Shown: one piece after another, positions 13,229 to 56,689 of the stretch
How the letters are laid out: the number at the start of each line of letters is the position of its first letter
How positions within the stretch are numbered: position 1 is the first letter of the stretch
Assembly: GCA_964036195.1 (NCBI GenBank)
Contig: OZ038455.1
Span: 7,891,855-7,955,854 of the forward strand
DNA: 64,000 nucleotides
Direction: 5' to 3'
Source: Sphaerolaimus hirsutus
Taxonomy: Eukaryota; Nematoda; Chromadorea; Monhysterida; Sphaerolaimidae
Position numbers and translations under genes: made by a program
Notes under the pieces: model-generated
Database searches by the model: none
What the model was told of the DNA's origin: nothing
Seen by the model: only the letters and a program-made list of their open reading frames with translations

Positions 13229-14138
13229 TAGTGATGGAAAAGCGCCAGAAAAAATGGCGCCAGGCGCCAAGGGCGCCATGGCGCCATTCGGAAAGTGGGC
13301 GCCAAGCGCCAAGGGCGCCACAGAAAAAGGGCGCCAGGCGCCAAGGGCGCCATGGCGCCATTCAGAAAGTGGGCGCCAGGCGCCAGGGGCGCCACGGAAA
13401 GAGGGCGCCAAGCGCCAAGGGCGCCATGGCGCCATTTGGAAAATAGGGCGCCAGGCGCCAAGGGCGCCAGGATAAAAAAGTGCCTACAACACCATGCGTG
13501 TGCGAAAAATGTTTCTACGGCACCATTGTACGCGCATTCACTTCTTTATTCGCGTTCTCCAGGATGTAATGAACAAAAACAAAGCTAGCAACAAAAATTT
13601 TTTGAATAAAATCCACATGACGACAAATTCAAACGCAATGGAAATTGTCATTTGACAACAATCCATTCATTACAAATAGACCTTTCCAAACAATCTTTCC
13701 TAATTGCAACGATTTAAATCCGTTTATTTCTGATTTTGCAAGTTAGACGGTCCATCATTTTTGTCTTTTGATCCGTCAGACAGATCTGGTGAACCGTTGA
13801 AACGAAAGATTTCCACCCACTCACACCACTCCGTCCATTTTTCTGGCGCATTTAGATCATCCACGGATGCGTTTTTCATTTTTTTTTCGTTAACACAGCA
13901 CTCACCGTGAAACCCTGCTGGCGCCTTTTTGGCGCCCTTCTAAAGCAGGGCGCCAGGCGCCAAGGGCGCCACGGAAAAAGGGCGCCAAGCGCCAAGGGCG
14001 CCATGGCGCCTTTCAGAATGTGGGCGCCAGGCGCCAAGGGCGCCACAGAAAAAGGGCGCCAAGCGCCAATGGCGCCATGGCGCGGCGCCCTTTGGCGCCC
14101 TCAAATGGCGCCAGCGCCATGGCGCCATTCCATCACTA
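13229..14138. mobile_element. hAT-type MITE rich in GGCGCC, 8-bp target duplication
   Basis: Termini TAGTGATGGAA and TTCCATCACTA are complementary and flanked on both sides by GTTCCATC (13221-13228 and 14139-14146), the 8-bp duplication expected of hAT transposition. Near both ends are tandem arrays of GGGCGCCAGGCGCCAAGGGC-like units with the GGCGCC palindrome repeated dozens of times. The central 400 bases are A/T-rich. No transposase is encoded. A second copy is at 31049-31860. Confidence 0.85.
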
Positions 14139-20800: not shown

Positions 20801-23800
20801 AGATTAATTCGATTTTCAAGGTGTTACCACTGTTGCCACTTTTATTCCTTTTCTATATTATTTTTGACCACAATTTATTACCACAATTGAATCAGACAAA
20901 AATGCTTCACAAAGCAATTTTGAATTCCCACCGTTTTAGTATTAGACTGTAGTATTTTGCTGTAGCTGGAAAGAATGTTGTTGGCAAATTATGCGATGCA
21001 ATGCAATCATGTAGACATGTATTTTATTGACTTAATTCAACACAGGGTGGTGGCAGTGGCGGGTTGCTGAACACTGGCTCGGTCGTTAATACAGCTGGCC
21101 AGCTGACAGATGGTGTAGTGGTGAGTGTTGTCTGATGAGCACACTGATGCAACAATTGTAAGATTTTTTTATTAAAAGTTTTTGTTTAAGTTGATTTTCT
21201 GCAATTTCTAGTTTTCTAATTCAGATTAAATTAAAATTTTCAATTATTTTGGAATGAATTGTAGACTTTTGAATTTTTTGACCAGTTAAGTATCTTGTGC
21301 AACTTTTGAATGTTAATAAAACATCAAGATGTTGCCACCCATGTCAATCTTACTGCCAAATTTTTGACCACAAATGTGCTGCAATTGAATCAGACAAAAA
21401 TGCCTCACAAAGTAATCCTGGGTTCCTACCATTTTAACATTAGGCTGTAACATTTGAGCTGAAAACAATGTGTTTGGCAAATTATGTGATGATTGGCATG
21501 TAATTGACCTAATTGAACACAGGGTGGTGCTGGCGGGTTGGTGGACACTGGCTCGGTCGTTGATACAGCTGGCCAACTGACAGATGGTGTAGTGGTGAGT
21601 GTTGTCTGTTGAGCACACTGATGCCACAATTCTAAGATTTTTTAATTAAAAGTTTTTTGTTTAAGTAGATTTTCTGGAATTTCTAGTTTTCTAATTCAGA
21701 TTAATTTAAAATTTTCAATTATTTTGGAATGAATTGTGGACTTTTGAATTTTTTGATTAGTTTAGTATCTTTTCCAACGTTTGAATGTTGCCAAATTTTT
21801 GACCACAAATGTGCTGCAATTGAATCAGACAAAAATGCCTCACAAGGCAATTCTGGGTTCCTACCATTTTAACATGAGGCTGTAACATTTGAGCTGAAAA
21901 TAATGTGTTTGGCAAATTGTGTGATGATTGGCATGTAATTGACCTAACTGAACACAGGGTGGTGCTGGCGGGTTGGTGGACACTGGCTCGGTCGTTGGTA
22001 CCGCTGGCCAGCTGACAGATGGTGTAGTGGTGAGTGTTGTCTGATGAGCACACTGATGCCACAATTGTAAGATTTTTTTAATTAAAAGTTTTTTGTTTAA
22101 GTTGATTTTCTGCAATTTCTAGTTTTCTATATCAGATTAATATAAAATTTTCCTTTTTTTGGATTGAATTGTGGACTTTTGAATTTTTTGACCAGTTAAG
22201 TATATTTTCCGACTTTTGAATGTTAGTAAAACATCAAGATGTTGCCACCCATGTCAAATTCACTGCCAAATTTTTCACCACAAATGTGCTGCAATTGAAT
22301 CTGACAAAAATGCCTCACAAAGCAATCCTGGGTTCCTACCATTTTAACATGAGGCTGTAACATTTGAGCTGAAAAAAATGTGTTTGGCAAATTGTGTGAT
22401 GATTGGCATGTAATTGACCTAATTCAACACAGGGTGGTGCTGGCGGGTTGGTGGACCCTGACTCGGTCGTTGGTACCGCTGGCCAGCTGACAGATGGTGT
22501 ACTGGTGAGTGTTGTCAGTTGAGAATATTGATGGCATAAATCTAAGAAATTTCTTTTAATTTTAAGTTTTTTGTTTACCTTTATAGATTTTCTGCATTTT
22601 CTAGTTTTCTAATTCAGATTACCGTATTACCTCGAATTATTTCCCATGAATTGACCCCCCCCTCAAAACGGGCTGCGGAAATGATAAACCCCCCTCGAAA
22701 TAACCCCGCCCCCCGAAATGATGTACATCATGTATGCCATGTACATGATGTATTTTGTTACCGCTAATTGACATTGCAGCTACACATAGACTAGTTTGTG
22801 TAGCTATCTACGTTTTTATGTCCAATTATACCCTGTTTGGACATATTTATTACCTGTTTTGGGTACGCAAATGCCTACTATTTACTAAGGTCCTTACGAA
22901 AATTTCTGACGGAATAATATACCCCCATCGAATAAGCCCTCCCCTTCCTCGAATTAACCCACCTCAAATTTTGCTGGTGGAATAATAAACCCCCATGGGG
23001 GTATTTTGAGGTAATACTGTAGTTTAAAATTTTCAATATTTTTGGAATGAATTGTGGACCTTTAAATTCATCTGACTAGTTCACGATCTTTTCTAACTTT
23101 TGAATGTTTAAAAAAGATTCAAGATGTGTTCCACCAGTGTCAATTTCATTGCCAATTTTATTTTTCACCACAAATGTGCTGCATCTGAATCAGTCAAACA
23201 TGCCTCACAAAACAAGTTTGGGTTTCTACCAGTTTAACATTAACTGTAACATAACATTTAGGTTGGAACAAATGTGTTTGGCAAATTGTGTGATGATTGC
23301 ATATAATGGACCTTATTCAACTCAGGGCGGTGCTGGCGCTGGTGATGTAGTTGGCGAGGTTGCCAGTGGAGTCGGTGTCGGTGGCAGTGGTGGGTGGCTG
23401 AACACTGGCCCAGTCCTTGGTACTGCTGGCCAACTGACAGATGGTTTGGTGGTGAGTGTTGTCTATTGAGCATAAGGATTGGCATAATTCTACAAAAAAG
23501 GTTAAAATTTAAGTTATTTTTGTTTAAGATGAGTTTCTAGTTCTAGTTTTCTCATTCAAATTAGTTTAGAAATTCAATTAGTTTGGAATAGACTCTGGAT
23601 TTTCAATTTTTCTGACTACTTCAGGATCTTTTCCAACTTTTGAATGTTTCAAAGCATTTTCAAGATGTTGCCGCCAGTGTCAATTTCACTACCAATTTGA
23701 TTTTTGACCACAAATGTGCTTCAATTGAATCAGACAAAAATGCCCCACAAAGCAATTTTGGATTTCTACTTTTTAACCTTAGACTTAAGCTGGGAAGAAT

Positions 23801-38870: not shown

Positions 38871-39855
38871 CATTTGTGTATTCATTCAAGTGTCAAAAAA
38901 GTCCATAAAAATGTCCACAATGAGGACATCAACATCACAACACCAGCAACAAAATTCCCAGAAACGACAATTTACGCAGTACTTCAAAATTCTTCAATGG
39001 CCCCGCGCACACTAGTTTACTGGCGTTTTCAGTTTACTGGCGGTAAACTCCATTTTTTAGTTTACCGGCTAAATTCACGCATAGTAAAAGTGGGCGGAGT
39101 TTAGGCCGCCATCTTTATTTTTTTCAAGTTTGCCTGTGATGTGAATTTACGCTGTAAACGTTAATTTCTAATTTCTTTAATTGTGGAAGAACGGAGCATT
39201 GTTTATGCAATTTTTTTGCGTCATCGTGTACAGTACGTTGTGTAGATGTTGTCAAAATTTTTAAAATATTTTTAAGTGCAACATTGTATTTTTTATTGAA
39301 TTTATCATTTTTTTTGTGGAAATAAATTTTTATAAAATCACCTGTTACGTTTTTTCGTTTATTGAAACGTTCCAAATTATCAGTTTTCGTTGCGCTATCG
39401 ATTGGTGTACACAGCGGACATGAAATATAAACTTTCGATTTTTTATGATTTTATTTCAATTAAACGCAAATAAATCACTAGCACGTGAACGGAAAGCCCG
39501 AATCCGGAAAAAAAAATCACACATGAAAGAGGAACATTAGCTGCACACATCACACAATTTTTCGCGGCGTGAAACGAAAGACTTTGCGAATTATGATTTA
39601 ATCACAATTAAAAAAAAAAAAATCAGCCAAAAATCGAATAGTGAATGAAAATTGTCCATTCAACGACAGTGTACTACATAACAACCATTATAACCGGTTG
39701 CAATCGAAAAATGAAGTGTAGCTGTAGCAGATAGCATGAAAATGAATTTTTTGTATTTGTTACATCAGTTTACCATTCCAGTGCCACTTTAATGCTAACT
39801 GCCACTGCAACGGAAATATTTCAGTTTGATTTTTATATTCAACGTAGTTGCAAAT

Positions 39856-42346
39856 TCAGCAGTCAGCGGGATTCACCCACGGAACACGACCGGCGTCCGT
39901 CATCATCCACTCCTTGATTGCATCCCTGATGGGGCGCGCATCTCTTTCGTCAACGTCCCTTCGGATTGGCACGTTATCGATCGTATCCATGTTGTCGTAC
40001 ACTGGTCGCCACTGCAGCTGTGTATGGGAATGAATTTATGTGATGTTGAATTGTAACAGTGAATATGCAAGGTAAACTTACATTTCGCTCAACAGTGTCG
40101 TTCGGGTCATCTTGTGGTTTTTCATCGCCATTTTCATCAAATTGGTTGGCAGCACTTTCCCCGCGGATATCACGCAGCCAATTGTGCAGGTGGCAACAGG
40201 CCATAACCAGTCTTTGTACGCGCGGCGGTTCCATCGCGATACAGGTCATCAGTATGCGCCATCTGCCAGCCAAAATACCAAAGACGCATTCGACAGTGCG
40301 CCTAGCTCGGGATAAGCTGCAGTAGTTGCAGTCAAATTTAGATTTCAGTTTTACCAAACAACGCTTCTTTCACAATATTCAAACACACCGATAGTTGAAG
40401 TGTCGCTGGCTGTCATCTGCATGCAGCGCATATGGCACCATACACCACTTGCGCAACGCGAACGCTTGATCACCCACAAAATAACTCGGAATGGTATTTG
40501 CAGGTTCGTTGGCATCTGCACCGGGCAGCAAGCATGGTGGCGCCATAAGCATTCTGCCATGTCTGTGTAAATGTATCACTTTTATCATGTGTAAATGTAT
40601 AGCACCTCATTGGAACATGTCAAAAAGGATGTAAACTCACATCAAATCCTGCCCGAAATCAGACGTGATCAGCACAGCACCATCTGCTTGTGACCCCGGC
40701 ATACCGATGTCCACGTACTGAATTTTCAAATCTGCGCTGGCGCTGATGAACAGTATAATCGACGAGAAGCCCTTGTAGCACCAGTATCTCGTTCCACCCT
40801 CTGCAAGGCGTTTTTCATTTACTTTTGTAACTGTAAACATTTCCACCTCACTGCACAGTTTCCCATCACTGTGAATTTAGTCATTTTTCTACAGTCGCCA
40901 GACCGTCGCCAGACCGTCGCCATTTCGTCGCGCAATTTGGCCCTTTTTTAAAAAAAATCATAACTTTTTTTTGGATCACTTTTATGAGAAGCCAGGTACG
41001 TCAGAAGAAGCGCAATTTTTTTCTCTACAAGTACATCCAAAAATCATTTGCACAACATTCCCATGACCCAAATGAAGTTACTTTCAAATCGGTGGGGGTT
41101 GCGGTTAAACTCAAGCAAAAGCGACGATTTTGCGACGTTTGCGACGCAAAATGCGACGAAAAGCGACGTTTTCACAAAAAAATTTGCAACCTTGGTAAAC
41201 TGGCGACTATTTCTGATTGAAGGCGACGCACGCGTCGCAAGCGTCGCAAGCGTCGCAAATGCGACGCTTAGTTTACCGTGACGTTGCATACGACTCACCA
41301 TGTTTATGTTTACTGGAAACAACACACATGAGGGCAAAAGTAGAATGCGTAAAATGATATGTACTTACCAGCGGGTTTGCGAATACGGATGTGTTTGCCA
41401 TCCAGACTCCCCACACAGTTCGGCATCTGCCACAGTTTCCAGTATTGCTGCGCGAAATCTTTCATTTGCCCTAAATCACTCCCCATAGGTTTCAAGTGGT
41501 CCTTCAAAACTTTCACTATTCCGGTGGACACTTCGTCAATAATCGTTCTAATCGTAGCGCCGGAAATCTGTAAATGTTTTTCCAAAATACAATGAACTAT
41601 AAAGCAATCTAAAAGCATGAAAAATGGTATCACCTGTGACTGGCCGGCACAATCTTCAACTTCCCGGCCGTTTGCGCATGTATACAGAAAGTAAAACAGT
41701 CGCATTTCTGTTGTCACTACAGCGATGTGTCTTCTTTCATCTCGTGTTCTCAGGTACTGTTCACCAGTTTCAGGGTCGACAGCTGTAAGCATCGCGTGCA
41801 GCTGTTCGAATTCAGTTGGCCACAGCTGTAATTAATTTGTAATCATTGTGAACGTTATCGGTAAACTGAGTTCATTCATACATATCAGTTTACTGTTCGA
41901 TTGCAATGTTGTTGTAAACAATAACATGAAAATGTCACAACACAGTAAGTGATGTTATATACGTCTGTATATTTTACGTAAATAACAGAAATTGTGAAAC
42001 AACGAACCCTGCACAGTTTGTAAAACCATGCTGGATCGGTGTTCTTGCAGGCAATAACAGCTCGCCAGTAATTGCCCCTGGAGCGCGCCCTTTCTAGTAA
42101 ATACGGTGTCATGTACTTTTTCCTGCCCTGATCACCCTGTTCTTGTGCGACATTCTGCTGTTCCTGCTCTTGTTCTTCGTCGTCGTTGTCCACATCATAC
42201 GAAAACAACGTGTTCCCGACTGCCAAAAAAGCGGCTAAAATTTGTCTCTTCTGATTGTGCGTTAGTGGCGCAGTTCCATCCAAATTCCGCTCTAGCGCTT
42301 CGTTCATTCTTTGCATTTGTCCCAAAATGGATTCATCTTGCGCCAT
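39856..42346 (-). CDS. PIF/Harbinger (HARBI1-like) DDE transposase, seven exons, intact
   Basis: Exons (descending): 42346-42008, 41825-41634, 41567-41369, 40800-40641, 40562-40389, 40316-40082, 40011-39856; all phases agree, 484 residues. Residues 1-113 form an N-terminal region with an acidic Q/E patch. The DDE domain follows the family order: CVGSLDGKHIRI (first Asp), QYVDIGMPGSQADGAV (second Asp), PSYFVGDQAFALRKW, FNYRLSRARRTVECVFGILA (Glu) and GRWRIL, then CCHLHNWLR. These enzymes cut and paste Harbinger elements, normally with a Myb/SANT-type partner. No stop or frameshift is present, so it is recent or under selection. Six introns are many for such a transposase and raise domestication as the alternative. 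Start is the first ATG, 252 bases from the start of the divergent gene. Confidence 0.87.
40895..41275. repeat. GTCGCCA / GCGACGCA repeat in transposase intron 3
   Basis: Three CAGACCGTCGCCA-like units open it, and the right part is a dense array of GCGACG and CGTCGCA units forming several hairpins. It lies wholly within the intron between exons 3 and 4. Confidence 0.5.
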
Positions 42347-42598
42347 TTTGAAACGTTTTTTTGGGGACAGTTTTTGTCAATCGATATTTCAGATTTCTGG
42401 CCATATGCCAGACATTTCTGGCATGTAGCCAGAAATGAAACATGTCATTAAAAAAAGTAACCATGAATAACATAAAATTGTATCACGACGTGTCACTTTT
42501 TTTTGTCACAAATCCATATCTTTCACAGATAAGAAATAAAAAGCGAAAATTTTGTGGAAAAGTGAAAAATAGACCGTTTGATTGATTTCGCGTCGAAA
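42347..42598. promoter_or_regulatory. Divergent promoter region between transposase and the large gene
   Basis: Only 252 bases separate the two ATGs, so both genes must share this region for initiation. It contains a small inverted patch TTCTGGCCATATGCCAGACA with further TCTGGCATGTAGCCAGA. No clear TATA box is seen. Confidence 0.5.
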
Positions 42599-43871
42599 AT
42601 GGTCCGAACTTTGGGCGGTATGGCGCGCGGCCGATCGCAAAACGTTTCCGCGACCGCGGAAACGACTTCGGATGGCGGCAAAGGCAAAAATGGAAACAAA
42701 CGTGGACGGCCGCCAAAGCAGAAAAGTGAGAGCCAGCCCCCAGAACAGGTTACTCATCCGATTTCTTTGGTTATCTGACCATTTCTTTTCATTCATTTTC
42801 TAGTTATCATTTTTGTTTGAGTACAAGTGTGTTTTGGACATCTGCCAATTTATCTACAATTTGCGAATGTTTACAAGCCAACGCGATATTTACAATCCAA
42901 GATAAGCCAACCAATGTTTACAAATCGTTTGCCCCACTTCAGACCGTTCCGACTGGACCGCCCGTGCGTGGTCGAGGCACAAACATGCGCACCAGAGGGC
43001 AGGCTGCGCAGAGTTCTCAGCGCGACATTTCCGAGCCGCAGCGCGTGCTTGTCCCCGACGATCACCTCGCACATTCGTTTGGCAGGGTTTTGTCGCAGGT
43101 TTGCTACTTATATTTGTATGGGTTTCTGAACTTTTTCTACACACACAGTTTATTCTTTATTTGAAATTTGTCTAAATTCATTTCTAATTTAGCAAACTTC
43201 TGTGCTTTTTCGTAAACTCACATTTCATTTGTTTCAACTATGCGGAATTCTCTTTCCACCGTGTCAAAAGTGTACACAATGTTCCTTTTCAGGATTTGTT
43301 CGCGAGTCAGGACTCTCCGGCTGAGCCGGAAGTCCCGGCTGACGGTGACCGTTTGGAGGAGCAGGAAAAAGCGCGCGAGGAGGAAAGAGCGCGCCAGCAG
43401 AAATTGTCGATGGAGGAGCAAAGAAGGCTGAGAAAGTTGGAAAATGACAGAATCGGGGCGAAGCGGCGCAGAGACCAGAAGAGGCTGCAATTGAAAGAGA
43501 AAAAAATGGTTTGTCATTTTTTCTTTATTTGAATACGTTCTCTTTCCGGCATTACCTCACTGTACACTTTCGTGAAAGTTTGCGCAACGTGAACTACTGT
43601 TGCTGTTTTCACCACTTATGTAAAAAGTAGATGTAAACTGAGGTTGCCATGACAGTGTAACTTTGCACACTGTGACAGACATACTGTAGCACCTTTTACC
43701 CATTATGTAAAATGTAGATGTAAACTGATAGTTTGATCACACACACACTGTCACTTTGCAGCAGGAGCTGCAACGGCAGGCACGTGAGGCAGCCACGAAC
43801 GTGTACGGTGGTCCCCTTGTGCCGTCCGCAGTGGTTGCACCCGCTGCAAGCACTACGGCTTCCGTGTCCAT

Positions 43872-43936
<65 letters not shown>

Positions 43937-46900
43937 TCGTACCGCCCGCCAAGAAATTGCCCGTGAAAACTGTCGTTGTTGGGGGTTCGCAGTCCCCGAC
44001 GCCGACAGTTTGCCAAGACACTGCCACAGCCGAGAAGGCCAAGCCTTCGACGCCGACAGTTGGCCAAGACGCTGCCGCAGCCGAGAAGCCAAAGCGAAAG
44101 TTTGCGCTCTTCGTTTGTGACAAGCCACGGTGTCACGGTATTTACGTTAGTTTACTTTCAGTAAGAATTCTTTCAGTGTTCTTGAGACATGTTTTAGACG
44201 TTTCTGAATGTGTTGCAGGATGAGGAAGAGCGCTTGGCGATGGAGGCCGGCCTACCAATTCCGCCGGAAAGCCCCGGGAAGATTGCGGAAAAGAAGCGCT
44301 TGAGGGAGGAGCACAACAGGACGTGCGAGTACAGAACTGCCCCTGTGAATGAAGTAAGTTTACTTCCTTACTTTCATCCTTTTTGCACTTTGTTTTCGTT
44401 AAATGTAAATGTTAAGTATGCGTTAGTTTCAATATAAGAATGTTCAGTTTGGTAAATTCTTCAATACATGTACTCTTACGTATTTCAGTATGGCGATCCG
44501 ATCGTGCCAGATAAGCGCACTGATCGTCAGCCGAAAAGCAGTGGCGTGCAGAAGGTGAAGGGCACAATCACCGCCGAAGTTAGTTCAGTACGATTGTTTT
44601 TTGGTGAAATATGGAGACGTATACTAATCAAAAAAGTAGGGAAATGGGCTCATATTTATATTTTTGTTATACCAAAAATCGGTCATGTAAAATGACTTTT
44701 TCCCATAATTCCGTTTCTAAGTTTTGGCAAACTCTGCGTATATGTATGAAATCAAAAAGTGTCTGACAGGGTTCCATATATAGTTTTGTTCAACCAAAAT
44801 GTTTCATGTGAGATCCATTTTTCACATGTTTCTCTTTTGAAAATTTTTCACCTTCTGCATATTCCGTTGGAATCAAAAGTGTCTAAGTGGCTTCCATATT
44901 TATATTTGTGTATAACCAAAATCTTTCATGTGAAATAAAATTTCCCCATGTTTCTGTTTTGAAAATTTTGCACATTCTGCAGGTATGTTTGGAATCAAAA
45001 AATGTCTAAGTGGGTTCCATATTTAAATTTTTGTTATACCAAAATCCTTCTGTAAAATCACTTTTTCCCATCTTTTTAAAATTGTTCACCTCATGCATCA
45101 GAAGTTGGGATCAAAAATGTCTCAGTGTGTGCCATATATATATTTTTCAGCCATCAAAATTCTCACTGTTTCACTGGCTGACAATTTTAATTGGTTCTTA
45201 GAAAGGTGTAGATTGATGGAATCGAAAATGTCTCTGTCTGTTCCATATATATATTTTTCAGCCATCAAATTTCTCACTGTTTCACTGGCTGACAATTTTA
45301 ATTGGTTCTTAGAAAGGTATATATTCTTGGAATCAAAAATGTCTCAGTGTGTGCCATATATATATTTTTCAGCGATCAAAATGCCCACTTTTTCACTGTC
45401 TTAAAATTTTAATTGTTTCTTACAAAGTGAGAATTACATTGGCTGAATCGAAACTGGCTTCAACTGCTCTGATTTTATAATTTTGTATTTACAAAATTAT
45501 ACATGGCTAATTTCCTTTTGCAAAACATTTTCTCAAAATGTTTCTCCTATTTCGCAGACCCTGCAAGAAATCCGGAACGAGTTGGCCATGCCCACGTGCA
45601 CTACCCCGTTGCCGGCCATGTACAAAGACGGTACTCTTTTCTAACTGTCTTTTTAACATGGAAACGAAACATTCATTGTAACGTGCTCTTTGTGCAGATG
45701 TTTTGGACGAGGGCCAGGGCTGGGTTCACTCGGGTCCCGGTGACGACGGTTGGATTCGGCACACGACGAGGACACCGGGCCCGTTTTGCCCCTTTCCAAT
45801 TTACCACCGCACAAATTCGCTTCCGCGTCGCCTGATGGATATCGTTAGCCCGACACTGTTTACCATTTTACTGTTAACTTTTTTCGAATAACTTTCTGAA
45901 TGGCAGGTAGGCCGTTCGACAGTGTAAGTTTAACTGTAAGTGGCACTTACCATTTAAAGTTTTTTGTAGCTTCTAGGACTATTAACTGTGCACTTTCCCG
46001 GTGTTGGTGAAAGGAAGGTGGATTCTGATTTCAACTAATTATTAAGCATGTACATCGCTGAAGTACATGCACCATCTATACCTTTTTTCCCTCATTTTCG
46101 GTGTCATTCTTTGGTGTTAGTTAGCTTCCCTGTAATCCAGCTTCTGTTGTACTAATGGTCATGCACACACTACTTTACCGCAACATTTTTGTAAACTGAT
46201 ACCTCAACTTATAACGCATTTGCGTTTCATACAGTGATGTCTCTGGCAACTGCAGTCAATGAATAAACCATTTCAGTGAACTGAAATGCGTTCAAAGCTG
46301 CTTTATCAGTTTACCTACATGTGGCAGTAAACTAGCGTGTGCATGCGCTACTTTACAGCTTTTTCTAATGCAAAATTCTTTCAACATTTCTCATTTTTTC
46401 AGGGTGCAAACGAGCGTGTTCCGTGGTGGGCGGATAAGCAGAACCCACCCGAGAATGCCAAGCCCGACATGCCCGCCGAGCCCGCCAAGCCCGCCGAGCC
46501 TGTCCGGACTGCACCGCCGGGCAAACCCGCTGACACAGCCACGCCCACAGCGTCCGACGTGAAGCGAAATTTGAATTTTGACAATAGTAAAGTGAGTTTG
46601 CAGTTCTGTTGCGCTTTCCGAGACATTTATTACAAGAACGGTTCACTTTTAAGCAGTACTTTCTGAACATCACAGTTCTCTGTATAAAAGGGGGGAATCA
46701 GTTGGTTCAGTGTTTCACATGTAGCGATTGACAGGATGGGTACGCTGCAGGTCACGCGGAACGAGCTCTGTCACCATGCGCTCATAAGCCTTCTCTTTCT
46801 TTTCGAGCAACTTAGTGTGTTCCAACAGAACCTCCGTAGCTTTACTGGCCATATGCATCTTGCCCGTAAACTGGTTCACTGTGTTCACCAGTTTCTGCAC

Positions 46901-49900
46901 TTGCGTGTTCACGTGTACGATGTTGTTCTCGGTGGTTTTCGTGAAGTTGATGAGCTCATCCATCTGCATTTTGAAAGAAATGGGAAAAAACCGTATTTCT
47001 TGAAGAATAACACGTGATCAACTTTGACAAATTTTTGTCAACATGGTCAGTTTTTACTGCACTGTAAACTAACAGCTTGAAATGGTGTCATTCTGGGGCC
47101 TGCATCCTCCTCACTCCTGTCAATACTCATGCCTTCCGCTGTGGACACTGAAGTTCCGCTTTGCACTTGTGTTGTTTGATTGGGTGTAGACGCACCGGGT
47201 ACCGGAAAACGAAAACTGTGCTTGTGTACACACTGTTACATTTTCTCATACACAAACCTTATCACATAAGAACTGTTTGCTGCACCTGCAATCACAAAAA
47301 GCATTTAGCAGTGTGAAAAGTGAAACCCGCTAATGTCATGTTTCAGGGAAAATGATCATGGCATGCATTTTTAGTGTTTGGTGGCAGTCTCAAGCAGAAT
47401 GTTGTTGCGTAAATCCTTGTCCAAAACGATTATACGTCACTATTTGGAGCACATTCTTTATTAGAATGTGCTGTTTAAATTTTAATTGGTTCTTGATAGG
47501 CAGGTAGCTTTAGAGAAACGATACTGAAATGTGTACACAAGCACCTGTTTGGGGGCGGTGGTGGAAAGGGGTAGGCTGAGGTGTTCGTTGTGGCGGGAAA
47601 CTGGAACATGCCATGTGAGAAAGTGCGACTGAAATCGGACTGCGACTGTTGCGCAGCGTAAGGCCCGCTGGATTGCTGCCCTTGCTGCGACATGACGCTC
47701 TTGTTCCCAACTGCCAGTGAATTAAGTTGTTCAGTTAGGCTAGGCATACTGCTTTTATTCTGTTGTATGACACGTTAGACGTGTGCGCACTTCCGACTTA
47801 AATTTTTTTCAGACTGCCCGCCCGCCATCGGAGTATGATCTGACGCTGACTGAGAAGGTGACGTTTGACTTTTGGACATTTAAATTTTGGACATTTAAAT
47901 TTTGGACATTTTTTGCTTGAACCCACATCATTCATGTTTCAAGCACGCACTGTACACATGAATGTCATGCCAAAAATACCTGTGTGCAGTTGACAGGTTG
48001 AGTTACCTTCTATTATTTGAAACACGCGGTTTTTAACAACCGTGTGTCATTCTCACGTTGAAATGTTTTGGACATTTTTGGCTTGAACCCAAATCTTTCA
48101 TGTTTCAAGCACACACTGTAGACACCTTGCACGATTTCTTCCATACAGCAAAACACTATAAATCTGGAAATATTCGTGTATTTACATGAAAATATTACAG
48201 CGAAAATTTATTTGAAACGCACTGTAGTTAAACAGTGTGTCATTGGCAGTAGGATTCAAAGGGGATTGAGTTTTCGGGATCGGGATCGGGATTGGGATCG
48301 GGATGGGCATGGGAATCGGGATCGGGATGGGAATCACGTTCCTCACAGTAAACGTGATTTGCTTGAACCCGCTTCTTTCATGTTTCAAGCACACATTTAT
48401 ATACACACATTCCACTATTTCTACAGTACAAATGGAGATTCTTGCGATTCGTGTGTAGGCCCACACGTGCAAGCTTTCCCAATATTTTGAACACACTGTG
48501 TTAAAAACAGTGTGTTATTTTCAATACGGTTCAAAGGGAATTTACTTATCGGGATGGGGATCGGGATGGGGATTGTGATCGGGATGGGGATCGGGATGGG
48601 GATCGGGATGGGGATTGGGATAGGGACTTGAACCCAAATCTTTCATGTTTCAAGCACACACTGTAGACACCTTGCATGATTTCTTCCATACAGCAAAACA
48701 AATTGTGCAAATATTCGTGTATTTACATGAAAATATTACAGCGAAAATTTATTTGAAACGCACTGTACTTAAACAGTGTGTCATTGTCAGTAGAATTCAA
48801 GGGGAATTGAGTTTTCGGGATTGGGATCGGGATTGGGATCGGGATGGGCATGGGAATCGGGATGGGAATCACGTTCCTCACAGTAAACGTGATTTGCTTG
48901 AACCCGCTTCTTTCATGTTTCAAGCACACATTATATACACACATTCCACTATTTCTACAATACAAATTGATTTCTCCAACAGATTCAAGCGAGTTGTGTG
49001 TAGGCCCACACGGCAAGCTTCCCGTTATTTGGAACACACTGTGTTAAAAACAGTGTGTTATTTTCAAAACGGTTCAAAGGGAATTTACTTATCGGGATGG
49101 GGATCGGGATGGGGATCGGGATCGGCATACGAATGGGGATCGGGATGGGGATCGGGATTGGCATACGAATGGGGATCGGGATCGGCATACGAATGGGGAT
49201 CGGGATAGGGACTTGAACCCACATCTATCATGTTTCAAGCAGTAACTATATACACACGTTGCACTATTTCTATATTCAAAACTCTCTAGCGAACCAAGCG
49301 TTGCTATGGGTTGCCAGAACATAAATGCATCCTCTATTTGGAACACACTGTGTTTAAAAACAGTGTGTTATTTTCAGTACGGTTAAAACGGAATTTACTT
49401 AGAAGGGATCGGGATGGGGATGGGGATGGGGATGGGGATTGGGATGGGGATCGGGAATGCCAAACCCCAGACTTTCACGGGATATGGGTTCTCACAGTAA
49501 ACATGATTTGCTTGAACCCACACATTTCATCTTTCAAGCAGTAACTATATAGACACATTTCACGATTTGTACCGTTCTAAAATCCACCAGCGAGTCTTGC
49601 TGTATACATGAATTTGAAACACACTGTGTTTTAAAACACTGTGTAATTGTCACTGCAAAACACTACTTTGAAATATCTCTCAGGCAAAGCTCGAGTACGA
49701 GCGACACGTGGCGCTGAAGAGCAAGGCGTCCAAAAGCAAAAGGAGCCTGCACGAAGAACGCGTGAAAAAAGAAAATGGGCGCGCCAAGGTGAAGTGGGAC
49801 GACTGGGAGGTTAATTTAACTTGGGTACACACGCTGAACTGCAAACTGTGTGCTGGAAACGTCATAAATCAGCTTTGAATGCATGTCAGTTCACCAAAAT

Positions 49901-52900
49901 AATGTATATGTCAAACGCAATTACTGGGGCATAACTCATTCAAGTAAACTGCAATCCGTTCCAAACACATTTATGAATGCCTACAAGCACAAAGTTTGCA
50001 GTTTACCATGTGCATGCGCAGATGTAGTAAACTTCTTTTTAAGTTCTCTTTACATGAAACAGTAAACTTAGCGTTGTAAACTGCAGGACGATGATGACGA
50101 CTTCATCACGCCAAGGTACAGTCAGACCGCCAAGTCACCACCGAGCGCAGTGGACGTGGAAATGGAAAGGCGGAGGAAGGAAAATGCCAAGAGACTGGAG
50201 GAGCAAACGAGGGCGCTGGCTGCACAGGTCGCTAAAGTGGTACGTTTAAATGACCGTTTTTGACATTTTCAAAAGAAGAGTTTGCATTTACAGTAGCACT
50301 TTCTTGTATACAGCAAGTGCCAGTCATCGGCCGCAACAACAGCAGCGTGCGCCGCTCTCGCGTGAATGCCACAAAGCAACTGAAACAGCTTCAGGATGGC
50401 CAAGTGGACGAGGACGATCCACAGAAGGACAAGGACTGGGTGGAGGACTTCACCCAGCAGGATGATGACCAAGAGGTAGCTTACGATTCGGACCCCTTCG
50501 GTTTGGATAGTTCCGGATCGTGCATAATTGTGACTTTCCCATACATTTTCAGTTACGTGACAATCTCACATACCTCCCGTAACTCAGGAAATGAATCCGT
50601 TGGGGCCGCGCGGCCGCGGGCCCAACGACGGGTCGCAAACGCCATCCGATGACGATGAGCGGTCGCTGGCGGTGGCCCAGTCAAAGACTGAAAAGCGCCC
50701 GAGCAAGCTGAAAGTGGCCGGGAAAAAACCGAAAAAACCGGTGACAGTCACACACCGTCTGCAAGTAAATGTAAACTGTTGCTTGCCTTGCAATTCGTAC
50801 AATATCATGATAAAACGGTTAGCCGGAAGGCTACCTGTATTTAACAGGATATTTACAAACGTGCATGGCTGGAAACAGTATACTGGACAGTTAAGACGGT
50901 GTGTGAGTGACCTCAGATTACCGGCGATGTGAGCCGCGTCGGCGTCGGAGGCCGGCCGAGCGTGCTGATTCCGGCCGAGAAATCGGAAGAATTCTGGGAG
51001 AAGTTCCACGAGCTGTTCCAGAAATACCCGCTGTTTGTTTCTGTTTGTATTTTTTTATCACACAAGTAAATGGACGTTGTGAACACGTACATTACTCACA
51101 GGTGCTGGAGCATGAAGGAGTGCACCAAGTACGACCTGCATCACCCGGAAAGGCAAACGAACGTTAGTTGCAGTTTACCGCTTACTTTCATTTGAGAGTT
51201 AAAGATTCCTTTCTGTAACCATTCTTTCATTTCTTTTTTCAGCGGTCCGATCACCCGGCGGTGAACAGGTCGTGGAACAACTTCACGAGGGAGAGCTACT
51301 TCGAGCCCCCGTACGACAACTACCCCGACAACAAGATGTGGTTGACCCGCGAGGTGGCGAACGAGTCCGCCAAAACAAACCAGAACGCTCTGGTGGCCCG
51401 CCGCGGCATGTTGCAGTCGATGTGGGACACGAAAAAGCGGCAGTTCAAGGTTAACCATGTTTTAGACTTCTCAGTTTACAGTTGACGAGTACTGCTGTGT
51501 CAAATTTCTGTATGCCGTTTTACGGCAAGTGCGGGAAATGTATCTGTTTCCCTTTTCTGGCAAGTGCAAAACATTTCGCAGTATTTGTTTTTGTGCAAGT
51601 GCAAACAGCTTTCAGTTTCCGTTTTACAGCAAGTGAAAACAATCTTTTACTTTCAGTTTCAAGTAAGCAACTTTGTTTTACACCGTACACGTAACACTGT
51701 TTCACTGTCCTTTCAGAGAGCGTTGACCCAAGCGCGCATACTTTACGGCGGCCGTCTGAGCGGCGTGTCAAACGAGGACCTCGGGGCGCACTACTACAAG
51801 AGGATCATGGAGCTCAATTTCGCGACTCTGAAGCACATGGACTACTATGCAGACGAGTCCGGTGAGTTTACCCTTTCCGGGCCATGTAGATGTAAACTTC
51901 GCATTTGCATTACGCAAAAATGGTACAACTACTCAGTGTTTCCCGACATCGTGGAACGCATGCGCAGTCAGGGCCGCACAGCTGAACAAAAAGCCGCTAT
52001 TCCGAAAGTGGCGCCAGGAGAACTGCCCCAGGTTGATTCAGATAAGCCTTGCGTCAGTGAATTATCACAGTTTGGGGAACAGTACTAACCTTTTCAACAC
52101 GTTTATTCAGATCAGCCGGCGCGAGCTGGGGCACTACGCGTGGAAAATCGAGTTGGACAAGGTGCGAACCGACTTGAAGGCGGACATCGTGTTTACCCTG
52201 GTGCACCAAATGCGGCAATCGGAGGCCCAGGCTATGCAACTGGCGGAAGAAATGATCCAGTTCTCCACCATGCCCATGATTGTGTTCAAAGACGGAAAGG
52301 CCAGTAGATGTTGGTTTACTGAAATGTATCATTTAATGTTGTTTTTATGTTTGTACGTTTGTAGCAGTGGTTGTGCACTTTACAGCGACCGATTGGCGCC
52401 GGGCAATGCAAGTTTACTGGCACAACGTGTGCCAGGGAAACTTCTACATCATGCTGGGCAAATTGGTAAAAACCACGTTCACGCCGGAGAAAATTGAGCC
52501 GCAAAGTATGGCGGTGCAACTCGTGGATTACCGAGTGAAACAGGCTGCGAGTGCCGTTCCCCCCGCGCCAGGGACGGTGCAAACGGTCGATAGCCCACCG
52601 CCGGAGGACTTTCACGAGGCGCCCGACATGGCGCAGGACAACGCGCCCATCATGGCGCAGGACAACGCGCCCATCATGGCGCAGGACAACAACCAGGTGC
52701 GAGTTGCATGAATGTAACAGGAAAATTGTAAGGAGTGAATAAAAATGTACTTTGTGTTAACGTTAAAGTGTAATAGTAAATTGTTTTTGTTAACTGTTAC
52801 GTTTTGACCATTTTAGTTTTATTTCCCGTTTTTAATATACACTTTTTTAAATTGCCGTAACCACCGCCAGACATGCCGCGAGCACGAGCCGTTGAGGAAC

Positions 52901-55268
52901 CCCCAGTTTCACAGCGTGCTGAAACAGTTCGCGCCCATTATCGACAAGATGGACGTTGCAGCGATCCGTGCAATGCGCCAAAATATGGAAAGGATGCTGT
53001 CGCAGTGCACCCAATCGGTAAACTATTCTTTATTGTCATGTATTCAGTCAATTCTACCATATCTTTCAAATGTGCTAATTTGCAGAGCACAAGCGTGAAT
53101 GCGGACAGCGTGAAGCGCAGCAAACTGCCCTGCATTTGCTCCTTCATCAAGAACATCCGGTTCATCGGCGTGGTGCAGCAGGAAATCGGCGTGATCAACA
53201 CGCTGCTGAAGGCCGATATGAACAAGTTCTGTGACATGATCGAGGACTTCATCATGAACCAGGTTATTTGATTGATAAACATTTTGAGAATGGAGTGTGT
53301 GTGTTTTCGGGACTGTTGCCTTGAACGTATCTCAACGTCACCACTTAAAAGTAGGAAAAAGTAATTTACTTGAAACGTTTCGTAAATGATGTTAACTTTT
53401 CGTAGGAATCCGCCAATACTGGAACGACCAGTTTGCCGATCGTTGCGGCTCCGCCTGCCAATCCGTCTGGCAGTGCGCTGCTCGAACGCCGCCACCGCAG
53501 GACCAGCGGGCTCGTTGTGTCGCCCCTCGCCGCGCCGCAAAAGAACGCGGAAATGGACTACAACGTCACGCCGGTGCAGGTGAGTATAACGGTGGTGTTT
53601 CATGATGTACGTAAACAGCATGTAACTAACAACCCTGTACTAACTACTAATGTTACTTACATCAGAAAACAAACCCGGGCAACTTTGCGTTTCCGCAGCA
53701 GGAGGCGAAAGTTGCCGAACCGGACCAAGATGACAGTCTGGTACAATACCTGGCTCAAATTGTGAGGATTGCACTCTTTCTTTTGTGTCAACAAACTACT
53801 TAAGATGCATCTTTTCGTAAATTGAAAATGTGTAATTTAAAAGATTTACTTCTTGTTACTTTTGATGAAATCCAATTTACACATTCTTATACATATTTTG
53901 GTAAATCAGTGTGCACAGTGGTACTTATTTGTAGTAGTGCATTTCTTTATGATTATGATAAAGTGACATATCGTACTTACAGCCGACGCAACAACTGGAC
54001 CAACTTGCCGGGTCTATGAAAAAAGCCAAGAAATCCGTGCCGACGGAAAAGGGCAAATTGCCCACGGTGCAGAAATTGCCGACTCCGCAACAGAACGTGC
54101 AAGCACCGAGTTTGCCGTACACGTCACCGGTGAATGTGAACACAGCGACGACCATCGCCGCACACTTGATGCAAAGGCAGGCTTCCGAGGTTGCCCTGGC
54201 TGCCAAGCTTCAGGCGACCCGCTTTGAAGTGCAGCACTTGCAGCAAGCCCTGCAAAACGTTAACGTTAGTAAGACATTTCATTACTTCTTCATGTGCAAT
54301 ACCATATGCAAATTGAAATTTCTCATGTATATTCGCAGTCGTGCCACCAGGTCGATGCCACTGAAGACGGCATCACGTACTCGTTTGTGGCATCGCAGGC
54401 GCCGCAGCGGCAGCATCAACAGCTGCAGTATGCCGAGGTGACTGACAGTTTCTGTTTTTTTTTCCTACTTATAATTCAGTGTTAAGAAGCAAGTAAATTC
54501 TATCCGCTTTTTTACAGCCCGCTGAAATGGACTGCGAGAACGACGATGGCGTCGTGCTGTTGCAAAGTGCCCAGAAACGCACTGGCCAGCCTGTACCGGA
54601 CACAGAATGTGCTGCGAAGCGGTACCGCCTGACAGTAAGTTTCTGTCTGCAGTGCTTCTGTTGTACAACTTTGTTGCCATTATAAAATGATAATATAAAC
54701 TCAGAATCAGACTGCTGCCAGTTCCCCGGCCAGCGCGCGCAAAAGTGCAAAGAAGAGCGAGCAAGCGGCTGCCGGGACCAAAACGGTTAGGATAGAAAAT
54801 TGCTTCGATATTTTGCTTCGTACTGTAATCTATGTTTACAGTATGAAAATGTGCAGACAAGCGAACCGCCGCCGACCAGTGAACAGCGCCGTACCGTGCC
54901 ACAGCCGATCCGCCAATCGCGCGCCGGTACGACGCCGCGCAATTGCCCTTTGGATGAGGAGGGCTACGCAAAACGACTGGCGGTACGTCTTGGGTTCAAT
55001 TGTGGTTTTCGGTGTTGTACATGTTTCTATGTGCAGTGTCTACTAGACTTTAGTATTTCTACAGTAATTGATATGTACAGTCCCCAGTGTGCATATATAT
55101 ATATCTGGGAAACAGTTGGAAACTTTTCTATAAGTTTACCATTACAGATGTTCATAGATGTAAACTGTTTACTTCTTTTTAACAAATAGAACGGTATACT
55201 GAAATTGCACACATTCTCAGGCGATCAATGAAGACTACTATGAGGAACTGGAGGATTTTGATGATTGA
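42599..55268 (+). CDS. Unrecognised 1558-residue AT-hook/coiled-coil protein, 31 exons
   Basis: Exons: 42599-42748, 42943-43098, 43293-43508, 43762-44112, 44219-44353, 44489-44578, 45558-45630, 45698-45843, 46403-46591, 47813-47857, 49684-49809, 50087-50239, 50314-50475, 50588-50764, 50917-51032, 51102-51162, 51243-51449, 51717-51861, 51937-52031, 52111-52303, 52368-52696, 52871-53017, 53086-53262, 53406-53579, 53666-53761, 53983-54264, 54339-54437, 54518-54634, 54705-54785, 54842-54982, 55221-55268. All phases agree; most are 0. Visible parts: AT-hook KRGRPPKQK (residues 34-42), E/R/K coiled coil (about 120-174), Pro-Ala repeat (about 205-230), acidic and basic linkers, a compact region 735-1045 rich in W and Y (EEFWEKFHELFQKYPL, RSWNNFTRESYFEPPYDNYP, ELGHYAWKIELDKV), MAQDNAPI repeated near 1090, acidic tail ending EELEDFDD. 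Probably nuclear and DNA-binding (inference). No Myb/SANT domain seen. Alternative ends may exist, for example AATAAA near 52738. Confidence 0.7.
43873..43934 (+). repeat. CCCGCG hexamer microsatellite coding Pro-Ala
   Basis: About ten copies of GCGCCC in frame within exon 4 of the large gene, giving an uninterrupted Pro-Ala stretch. Length variation here would change the protein by dipeptides without a frameshift. Confidence 0.85.
44620..45420 (+). repeat. Tandem units of about 120 bases in intron 6 of the large gene
   Basis: Each unit reads roughly GGAATCAAAAATGTCTCAGT, GTTCCATATATATATTTTT and CATCAAAATT. The last three units (45110-45410) are nearly identical, while four earlier ones are diverged. 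ACTGGCTGACAATTTTAATT and CAATTTTAATTGGTTCTTAG are exact across the recent copies. No coding exon was found among them. Confidence 0.75.
46626..46631 (-). terminator. Poly(A) signal of the nested gene
   Basis: AATAAA on the minus strand, 84 bases beyond the stop codon of the nested gene and about 35 bases short of plus-strand exon 9, so the two transcripts need not share exonic sequence. Confidence 0.5.
46715..47747 (-). CDS. Nested coiled-coil protein gene, three exons
   Basis: Exons (descending) 47747-47545, 47215-47074, 46963-46715; phases agree (2, then 0) and the product is 197 residues. It lies entirely inside intron 9 of the large plus-strand gene, on the opposite strand. Residues 1-68 are Gln/Ser/Pro-rich and end in a Pro run (PFPPPPPN). 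Residues 69-115 are Ser/Thr-rich with an acidic patch (SEEDAG). Residues 116-197 form an amphipathic helix typical of a coiled coil (NTQVQKLVNTVNQFTGKMHM, EHTKLLEKKEKAYERMVTEL). I recognise no family. Position suggests a third element-encoded protein, perhaps an oligomerisation partner of one of the others (inference). Confidence 0.62.
47860..49670 (+). repeat. Complex tandem array in intron 10 of the large gene (GGGATC/GGGATG units)
   Basis: About five units of 280-470 bases. Each contains TTGAACCCACATCTTTCATG, TTTCAAGCACACACTGTA, a hairpin ACACACTGTGTTAAAAACAG followed by TGTGT, GAATTTACTTATCGGGAT and a run of GGGATC, GGGATT or GGGATG hexamers. The regularly spaced GGG triplets could form G-quadruplexes in DNA or pre-mRNA. 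Units near 48060-48400 and 48640-48920 are nearly identical over almost 300 bases, so duplication is recent. Confidence 0.8.
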
Positions 55269-55415
55269 AATGTGTTTTTTTTGGTAATGTGAAAGGGGCG
55301 TGTGCCTCTGTGCATGTTTACCCCATGTGCATGTCAGCGGTATTCTACATGTTGACTTTCCACGACGCTCCAGGGGATTCGGTAGACTCCTCTGGAGCAA
55401 TTGATAGTTCTTACA

Positions 55416-55421
55416 AATAAA
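55416..55421 (+). terminator. Poly(A) signal of the large gene
   Basis: First AATAAA after the stop codon at 55266-55268, within 150 bases. Confidence 0.55.
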
Positions 55422-55805
55422 ACACATGGACTAGTCGTTTCAAAGGTGAAAATATATAAAAAGTTATGGAAATTGTTGAATTTGAGTTAAAATTATGGTC
55501 CACATGCACACTGGGTTTACATGCACAGAAGGCTTCAGTCATGTGAAAGTGCTGAAAGTAGTGAATACGTTTTAATGCAGTTTCTTATCATTTTACGTTT
55601 TCATACAGTTCCTTTTTTGTAACATTTCCATCATTCGCAAATTATCACATTTCAAAGTGAAAACGTTATGTACTTTTTAAGTTTCTTCCGTATACAATTG
55701 TCAAATTTCGCATTGTGAGATAGGTAAACAAGTTTTAAATTTTGCTCAAAAGTGTAACTCTTGTCAACAGCAATATAGTCTTGTTTTTGTTTTTTCTTAG
55801 TTTTT

Positions 55806-56025
55806 GTTACAGCGAGAAGGAGAATGATTTCTTTTTACAGTTTTAGATTTAAATTGAAAATTGGCGAGTACAAAGTTTGGATTTTTTTTTGTCGCACTTC
55901 CTTTCTTTTTGTCAAAGCAAGAAGGAGAATGATTTCTTTTTTTACACTTTTAGATATACATTGAAAATTCGCGAGTACAAAGTTTGGATTTTATTTTGTC
56001 GCACTTGCATTTCTTTTTGTCGAAC
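55806..56025 (+). repeat. Tandem duplication of about 117 bases
   Basis: GAGAAGGAGAATGATTTCTT ... GCGAGTACAAAGTTTGGATT ... TGTCGCACTT occurs twice in direct order with few differences. It is non-coding, between the large gene and the right end of the candidate element. Confidence 0.7.
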
Positions 56026-56540
56026 TTCCATACAAATCACGTGTCCATGTAATTTTTAATTTTTCTATCCGTAACAACATGATGAAATCACGCAATAAAT
56101 CTGTTAGGTACATTTCAATTTGTAAATTGAAGTAAAAAGTAACAAAAACGAATTATTAACAGTCACGATAAATAACGAAATATCAACAGTCACGATAAAG
56201 AACAAATGTTAGCAGACACACACAAACGTAATTGTCACGTCTAAATTGTCTACGTTTCGCAACAAAGATACGTTAGGGAATTTGAAAAGTCAAAAAAATT
56301 AGTTTACTGCTCACCTGATAAGTCTCGGGGAATAAATCCTTCCTTATTTTTGGCTGTACGACGCGTCGCGAGTCGCATACGACGCGTCGCGCGACGAATG
56401 CGACGCGTCGCATAATCGTCACTTCCAGTTTACCCAGCTGTGTCACATTCGTGTGTAATAGTGCGACGCGTCGCACTTTTGTGACTTGCCGAAACCACTA
56501 ACCCCAGAAAGTGAAACACCAACGTAAACTAAAGTACACA

Positions 56541-56604
56541 CGTCGATCAAAAATGTAAACCGACGCGCGACGCGTCGCGTTTCAGTTTACATTTTTGATC
56601 GACG
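56541..56604. repeat. Perfect 20-bp-arm hairpin just inside the right end of the large element
   Basis: CGTCGATCAAAAATGTAAAC (56541-56560) and its exact complement (56585-56604) flank a 24-base loop of CGACGCGCGACGCGTCGCG plus five bases. Both arms contain the GTAAAC motif, and the terminal repeat starts 10 bases further right. Subterminal hairpins of this kind are candidate transposase-binding sites (inference). Confidence 0.8.
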
Positions 56605-56689
56605 TGCCGTGTTGGTAAACTAGCGTGTACAGCCACAATGGATGTGCACTGTATGGAAGACTACGGAATTGATTTGAACTACAACTACC

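Follow-up and report, generated by a model that had tools for sequence, protein, structure and literature searches.

The segment from 38999 to 56636 of the window (the whole 64,000-nucleotide stretch of Sphaerolaimus hirsutus DNA that was analysed) is a large, recently active DNA transposon, young and complete. Its three predicted genes, with 41 exons in total, are a DDE transposase, a divergently transcribed large gene and a third gene nested in an intron of the latter. We consider it best explained, with a probability of about 0.85, as a five-fold enlarged Pangu element, whose large gene would encode the second Harbinger protein, in the form of a 1563-aa AT-hook protein, and whose nested gene would encode a third partner. 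The earlier note on this DNA had proposed a giant, intron-rich Harbinger-like element, and this is borne out by copies with target-site duplications and by an empty-site match.

Borders and copies of the element

Comparison of 24 full-length copies sets the borders of the 17,638-bp element at 38999 and 56636, correcting the 39001 and 56635 given at first. It is bracketed by a target-site duplication, with AAT at 38996–38998 and an identical AAT at 56637–56639, the latter recognized from the flank comparison of copies. The 22-bp terminal inverted repeats are identical in 15 of 22 bases: the left one (38999–39020, plus strand) starts with GG and ends with CTAGTTTAC, whereas the right one (56615–56636, minus strand) starts with GT, or GTGG in full on the minus strand, and also ends with CTAGTTTAC. 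Flanks were read for the 24 full-length pairs of ends (17.08–18.3 kb) and for seven others; one of the right-end lists is biased, as its query overran the earlier-placed end by two bases, one of them belonging to the element. Among the full-length pairs, the flanks agree over 3 bp in 20, over 1 bp in two, over 2 bp in one and over 4–7 bp in none, leaving four without matching duplications. A permutation test preserving base composition gave a mean of 8.9 matching 3-bp flanks against the 20 found, and none of 100,000 permutations equalled that number; over all 31 pairs read, 3-bp duplications are present in 22. The 20 matching duplications comprise AAT and ATT (nine each), TAT and ATA (one each). 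The CAATGG reported previously is indeed present on both sides of the element, but the duplication itself is the 3-bp AAT: since the copies agree over 3 bp, and none of the 24 at 6 bp, CAATGG amounts to AAT plus bases agreeing by chance. TGG as the start of the element was dropped after the same comparison.

A search of the genome (348.5 Mb in 762 contigs) with a 26-bp left-end pattern (38998–39023) and a 22-bp right-end pattern (56614–56635) returned 51 and 126 exact matches, respectively, and the reversed patterns, used as controls, returned none. The excess of right over left ends goes along in part with the greater length of the left pattern, which misses a GGCCCCACGCACAC variant found in three copies. 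Transposase loci of the family number at least 137, from 150 scored of 306 candidates. When these loci were paired with 100 of the 126 right ends, the left end being predicted from the position of the transposase, an exact right end in the correct orientation lay 16–19 kb from the predicted left end in at least 47 of the 137; a correctly oriented right end lay within 40 kb in at least 87, and a right end was less than 8 kb away in at least 23. The ends thus recur together, and the genome holds dozens of full-length copies. Ten further copies and the window copy are 99.19–99.95% identical, and in all 11, which were fully read, the three frames are open and no internal splice site departs from GT or AG. 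Length changes in their coding sequence are multiples of three and confined to, or beside, a proline-alanine repeat in exon 4. The ten were picked by ends about 17.6 kb apart, so the sample is not a random one. Two copies picked for their divergence are both broken, one by a 1303-bp insert in exon 30 and the other by stop codons in both its transposase and its large gene; of four short pieces sampled from two more diverged copies, two matched the element and two did not.

Insertion-free sites were sought by joining the flanks of individual copies. For the copy at C14:19.6 Mb, the flanks joined with a single AAT find repeat copies that match over the full 120 bp, 12 being 99% identical and further ones 98%. 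This gives paralogous empty sites with one AAT that are clean for this one insertion; for the copy at C1:27.1 Mb the joined flanks find matches at 88–96%.

These observations bear on two rival readings. The near-identity of the copies is what a segmental duplication or an assembly artefact spreading the 17.6 kb would produce, yet such an origin is extremely improbable in view of the fixed borders, the differing flanks in the 31 pairs, 22 of which have 3-bp duplications, and the empty-site match. A domesticated locus that had kept its ends, which had been offered as the alternative, could likewise have an intact transposase and long genes; it is excluded, its probability being practically nil, by the dozens of near-identical full-length copies with duplications, the integrity of 11 out of 11 copies read, and the presence of the related copies and terminal inverted repeats that domesticated Harbinger genes lack.

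Forms of other lengths also occur. Two long forms, of 21.9 and 30 kb, both have matching 3-bp flanks. Five short forms (3.2–10.1 kb; C7:6.37, C2:19.84, C3:28.89, C6:29.15 and C3:8.27 Mb) retain both ends, and none has matching 3-bp flanks; simple internal deletion of an insertion therefore does not account for them, and failed gap repair leading to internal deletion is unsupported as their source. The three shortest (3.2–3.8 kb) all have AAT as the left and ATT as the right flank.

The three genes

The gene models are based on splice sites, reading frame and conservation. The transposase gene occupies 39856–42346 on the minus strand, with seven exons (42008–42346, 41634–41825, 41369–41567, 40641–40800, 40389–40562, 40082–40316 and 39856–40017) encoding 486 aa with a DDE_Tnp_4 match at E=4.1e-26. 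Its D233, D328 and E364, which by motif would be the catalytic triad, are conserved in 40, 39 and 40, respectively, of the first 40 among 89 relatives. Over these 89 matches identity ranges from 28 to 43%, and the relatives with names are animal proteins, several of them HARBI1 or ALP1-like. With the frame intact in all 11 copies, the complete HARBI1-like transposase described previously is confirmed. In the gene models, a gap of 252 bp (42347–42598) separates its start codon from that of the large gene; it is probably a two-way promoter. The large gene (42599–55268, plus strand) has the 31 exons first proposed, encoding 1563 aa instead of the 1558 then counted; its introns are all GT-AG, 26 of the 30 being in phase 0. 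Near the N terminus of the protein is the sequence KRGRP, presumably an AT-hook core. The nested gene (46715–47747, minus strand), also recognized earlier, lies within the ninth intron of the large gene and is again intact in 11 of 11 copies; its three exons (47545–47747, 47074–47215 and 46715–46963) encode 197 aa, judged by eye to form a coiled coil. Intron 10 of the large gene (48264–49477) contains GGGATCGGGATG-type repeats inside larger units of about 270 bp.

In comparison with a diverged copy on C3, the transposase has a dN/dS of 0.37 (Fisher p=3e-4), the large gene one of 0.51 (p=1.8e-8) and the nested gene one of 0.22 (p=1.7e-3); against the C14 copy the values are 0.51, 0.60 and 0.28. 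Among the 11 near-identical copies, pN/pS is 0.49, 0.70 and 0 in the same order, on 4/6, 26/53 and 2/0 synonymous/nonsynonymous sites, which says little at such low divergence. Indels divisible by three make up 6 of 6 in coding against 10 of 27 in noncoding sequence of the 11 intact copies, and 12 of 16 against 15 of 62 in the C3 copy.

Searches of Pfam with the large and nested proteins, whole and in pieces and from both families of the element (see below), gave sub-threshold matches only, with no Myb/SANT/MADF domain among them, though a diverged fold is possible. The PDB holds no meaningful relative of the core of the large protein; the protein database yielded no relatives of its residues 730–1240 at E<=0.001, nor of the nested protein at E<=10. 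Viral contigs contained no relatives of the transposase or of the large-gene core, and the whole window had no Rfam match at gathering scores.

A second family and the relationship to Pangu

Stronger evidence than dN/dS that the large and nested genes are real parts of the element comes from a second, distant family in this genome, in which the arrangement of three genes is found again. With large-gene exon 17 as the query, all 123 candidates were scored; about 100 are loci of the family of the window element and 21 stand at 37–44% identity. In at least 71 of 99 exon-17 loci of the former, a divergent transposase lies 9–12.5 kb away; in the second family, a divergent transposase of its own type lies within 25 kb in 10 of 13 such loci, and at 7.3–7.5 kb in seven. 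Family 2 is about 38% identical to the window element in exon 17 and 35–74% across the proteins. In one locus, of which 9.9 kb was read, the transposase exons are 38–74% and the large-gene core 35% identical to those of the window element, and a nested gene is again placed on the minus strand between stretches of the large gene, with 42% identity over 85 residues (E=2e-18; 1.5e-10 under another matrix). The large proteins of both families start with MVRT and have the core RGRP. After AAT, the left end of family 2 starts with GGCCCCACACA, as against GGCCCCGCGCA in the window element. A member of family 2 lies from about C1:28876537, and further exon-17 relatives at 37–44% are located on C6, C16, C746, C15, C3, C7 and C302.

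This recurrence points to a working unit rather than an accidental cargo. The earlier note was right in counting three genes; since family 2 keeps them all, "cargo" is probably the wrong word, and by sequence the large and nested genes look like ancestral parts of the transposon lineage, neither passengers nor a domesticated locus. That they are captured host genes travelling without a part in transposition is nevertheless the rival with most in its favor: no domain ties either protein to a known transposition protein, neither the nested protein nor the stretch of the large one searched has database relatives at the thresholds above, and among the matches listed 18 of the 99 exon-17 loci have no divergent transposase within 25 kb. 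Three of these (C2:30.20, C6:0.92 and C6:7.46 Mb; 79–87% identity) could be either old copies or a host gene. We regard this reading as unlikely, given that both genes, in the same orientations and with the same nesting, persist in family 2 for all its divergence in exon 17, and that, with every exon-17 candidate scored, what lies beyond the family of the window element is the set of 21 at 37–44%. The same lack of protein-database relatives would suit a nested gene that is a chance reading frame in an intron. This is very improbable, as family 2 has a minus-strand frame in a comparable position that matches it over 85 residues, and as the dN/dS of the nested gene against the C3 copy is 0.22.

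The PF13359-type DDE transposase with its intact triad, in a mobile unit with terminal inverted repeats and a short target-site duplication, places the element in the PHIS superfamily. It resembles canonical PIF/Harbinger elements in this transposase, in short terminal inverted repeats, in a 3-bp duplication and in the presence of an accessory protein (PMC9179366, PMC9710019 and PMC4482050, each in its available part), but differs from them in having 5'-ANT-3' instead of 5'-TWA-3' as the duplication, in the lack of a detectable Myb/SANT/MADF domain, and in being 17.6 kb long against an average of about 4.1 kb (PMC4482050, section 5). The ANT target site, represented by AAT or ATT in 18 of the 20 matching duplications, places the element with Pangu, which is Harbinger2 in Repbase and is given as 34 families with ANT duplications and with terminal inverted repeats of 11–40 bp starting with AG or GG (PMC4482050, in the parts available). 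On target-site sequence, then, the element fits the Pangu group. Section 6 of the same source describes autonomous Pangu elements as averaging about 3487 bp, with two ORFs, the second having no known motif; its section 11 lists Pangu among the groups whose extra ORF encodes Myb/SANT. With the Pangu described there the window element shares a DDE transposase without further known domain, the ANT duplication and a motif-less second ORF. Its own 22-bp terminal repeats start with GG at the left end and with GT at the right. It departs from them in its size, five-fold the average of about 3.5 kb, in having three genes rather than two, and in the 31-exon organization of the second gene, with its 1563-aa product and a further gene nested in an intron.

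Harbingers of three proteins without Myb/SANT exist in rust fungi: none of the three proteins of these PHISTA elements is described with that domain in the available part of the report (PMC12730594). They differ in their TA duplication and TET/JBP enzyme, whereas the window element has two extra proteins without a known domain. Polintons, Teratorn and the 16–20 kb CACTA elements of a red alga are comparable in size and extra genes but belong to other superfamilies, according to the accessible text of a review of giant transposons (PMC6431247), which has no mention of "Harbinger" or "PIF". Among the literature matches listed, Repbase aside, there was no Harbinger or Pangu of this size or layout.

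Proposed mechanism and the GTTTAC motif

In the zebrafish element Harbinger3_DR, a Myb-like partner recognizes a subterminal motif of 9 bp, and the nuclear entry of both proteins depends on this partner (PMC9710019, available part). By analogy, the corresponding role in the element described here would best be filled by the large AT-hook protein. The roles that we infer for the element-encoded proteins from their sequences are as follows. The DDE transposase would cut at the terminal repeats and insert the element with a 3-bp stagger. The large protein, as an enlarged second Harbinger protein, would bind AT-rich DNA, and perhaps the GTTTAC motifs scattered through the element, bringing its distant ends to the transposase. 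The small nested protein might serve as a third partner; alternatively, its gene might act as a regulator, with antisense transcription through intron 9 tempering the large gene.

Excision and insertion of Harbinger-type elements in a yeast assay were more frequent the smaller the element, and the largest one given in the available part of that study measured 7,126 bp (PMC10288884). The existence of a 17.6-kb element in dozens of full-length copies, intact in all 11 that were read, therefore calls for an explanation, for which its two proteins without a known domain are the obvious candidates. That a DNA transposon carries 41 exons and a nested gene intact also bears on how intron-rich genes spread. 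More speculatively, and at somewhat less than even odds, the window element could belong to a lineage of its own among Pangu transposons, one of giant three-gene elements that comprises at least two families in this genome. Here an AT-hook scaffold and a coiled-coil partner would replace the Myb/SANT protein, and the new kind of transposition complex so formed would overcome the size penalty seen in Harbingers, possibly by coating the element through GTTTAC sites.

The last of these suggestions, coating through GTTTAC, is a guess. The motif is the core of both ends. The element contains 59 copies of it where 13.7 (sd 3.5) would be expected, and 55 of them lie outside coding exons. In the C3 copy, 48 of 54 noncoding sites are kept, compared with 71% for the background and 75% for hexamers of the same composition, some other hexamers being likewise kept; in the C14 copy, all 54 are kept, compared with 92 and 93%, respectively. 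In family 2 the enrichment is far weaker (17 against 9.2 expected), and GTTTTC, the terminal motif of that family, is unconvincing as a counterpart, as it is also enriched elsewhere in the window. Together, these two observations make the idea of motif binding a weak one.

Elsewhere in the window, an exon at 2153–2557 has a patatin/iPLA2-like motif (GGGIRG ... GTSTG) identified by eye, which is in keeping with an animal host, GGCGCC-rich tandem arrays lie at 13242–14083, and a tandem array of 2.8 copies of a 435-bp unit occupies 21354–22621.
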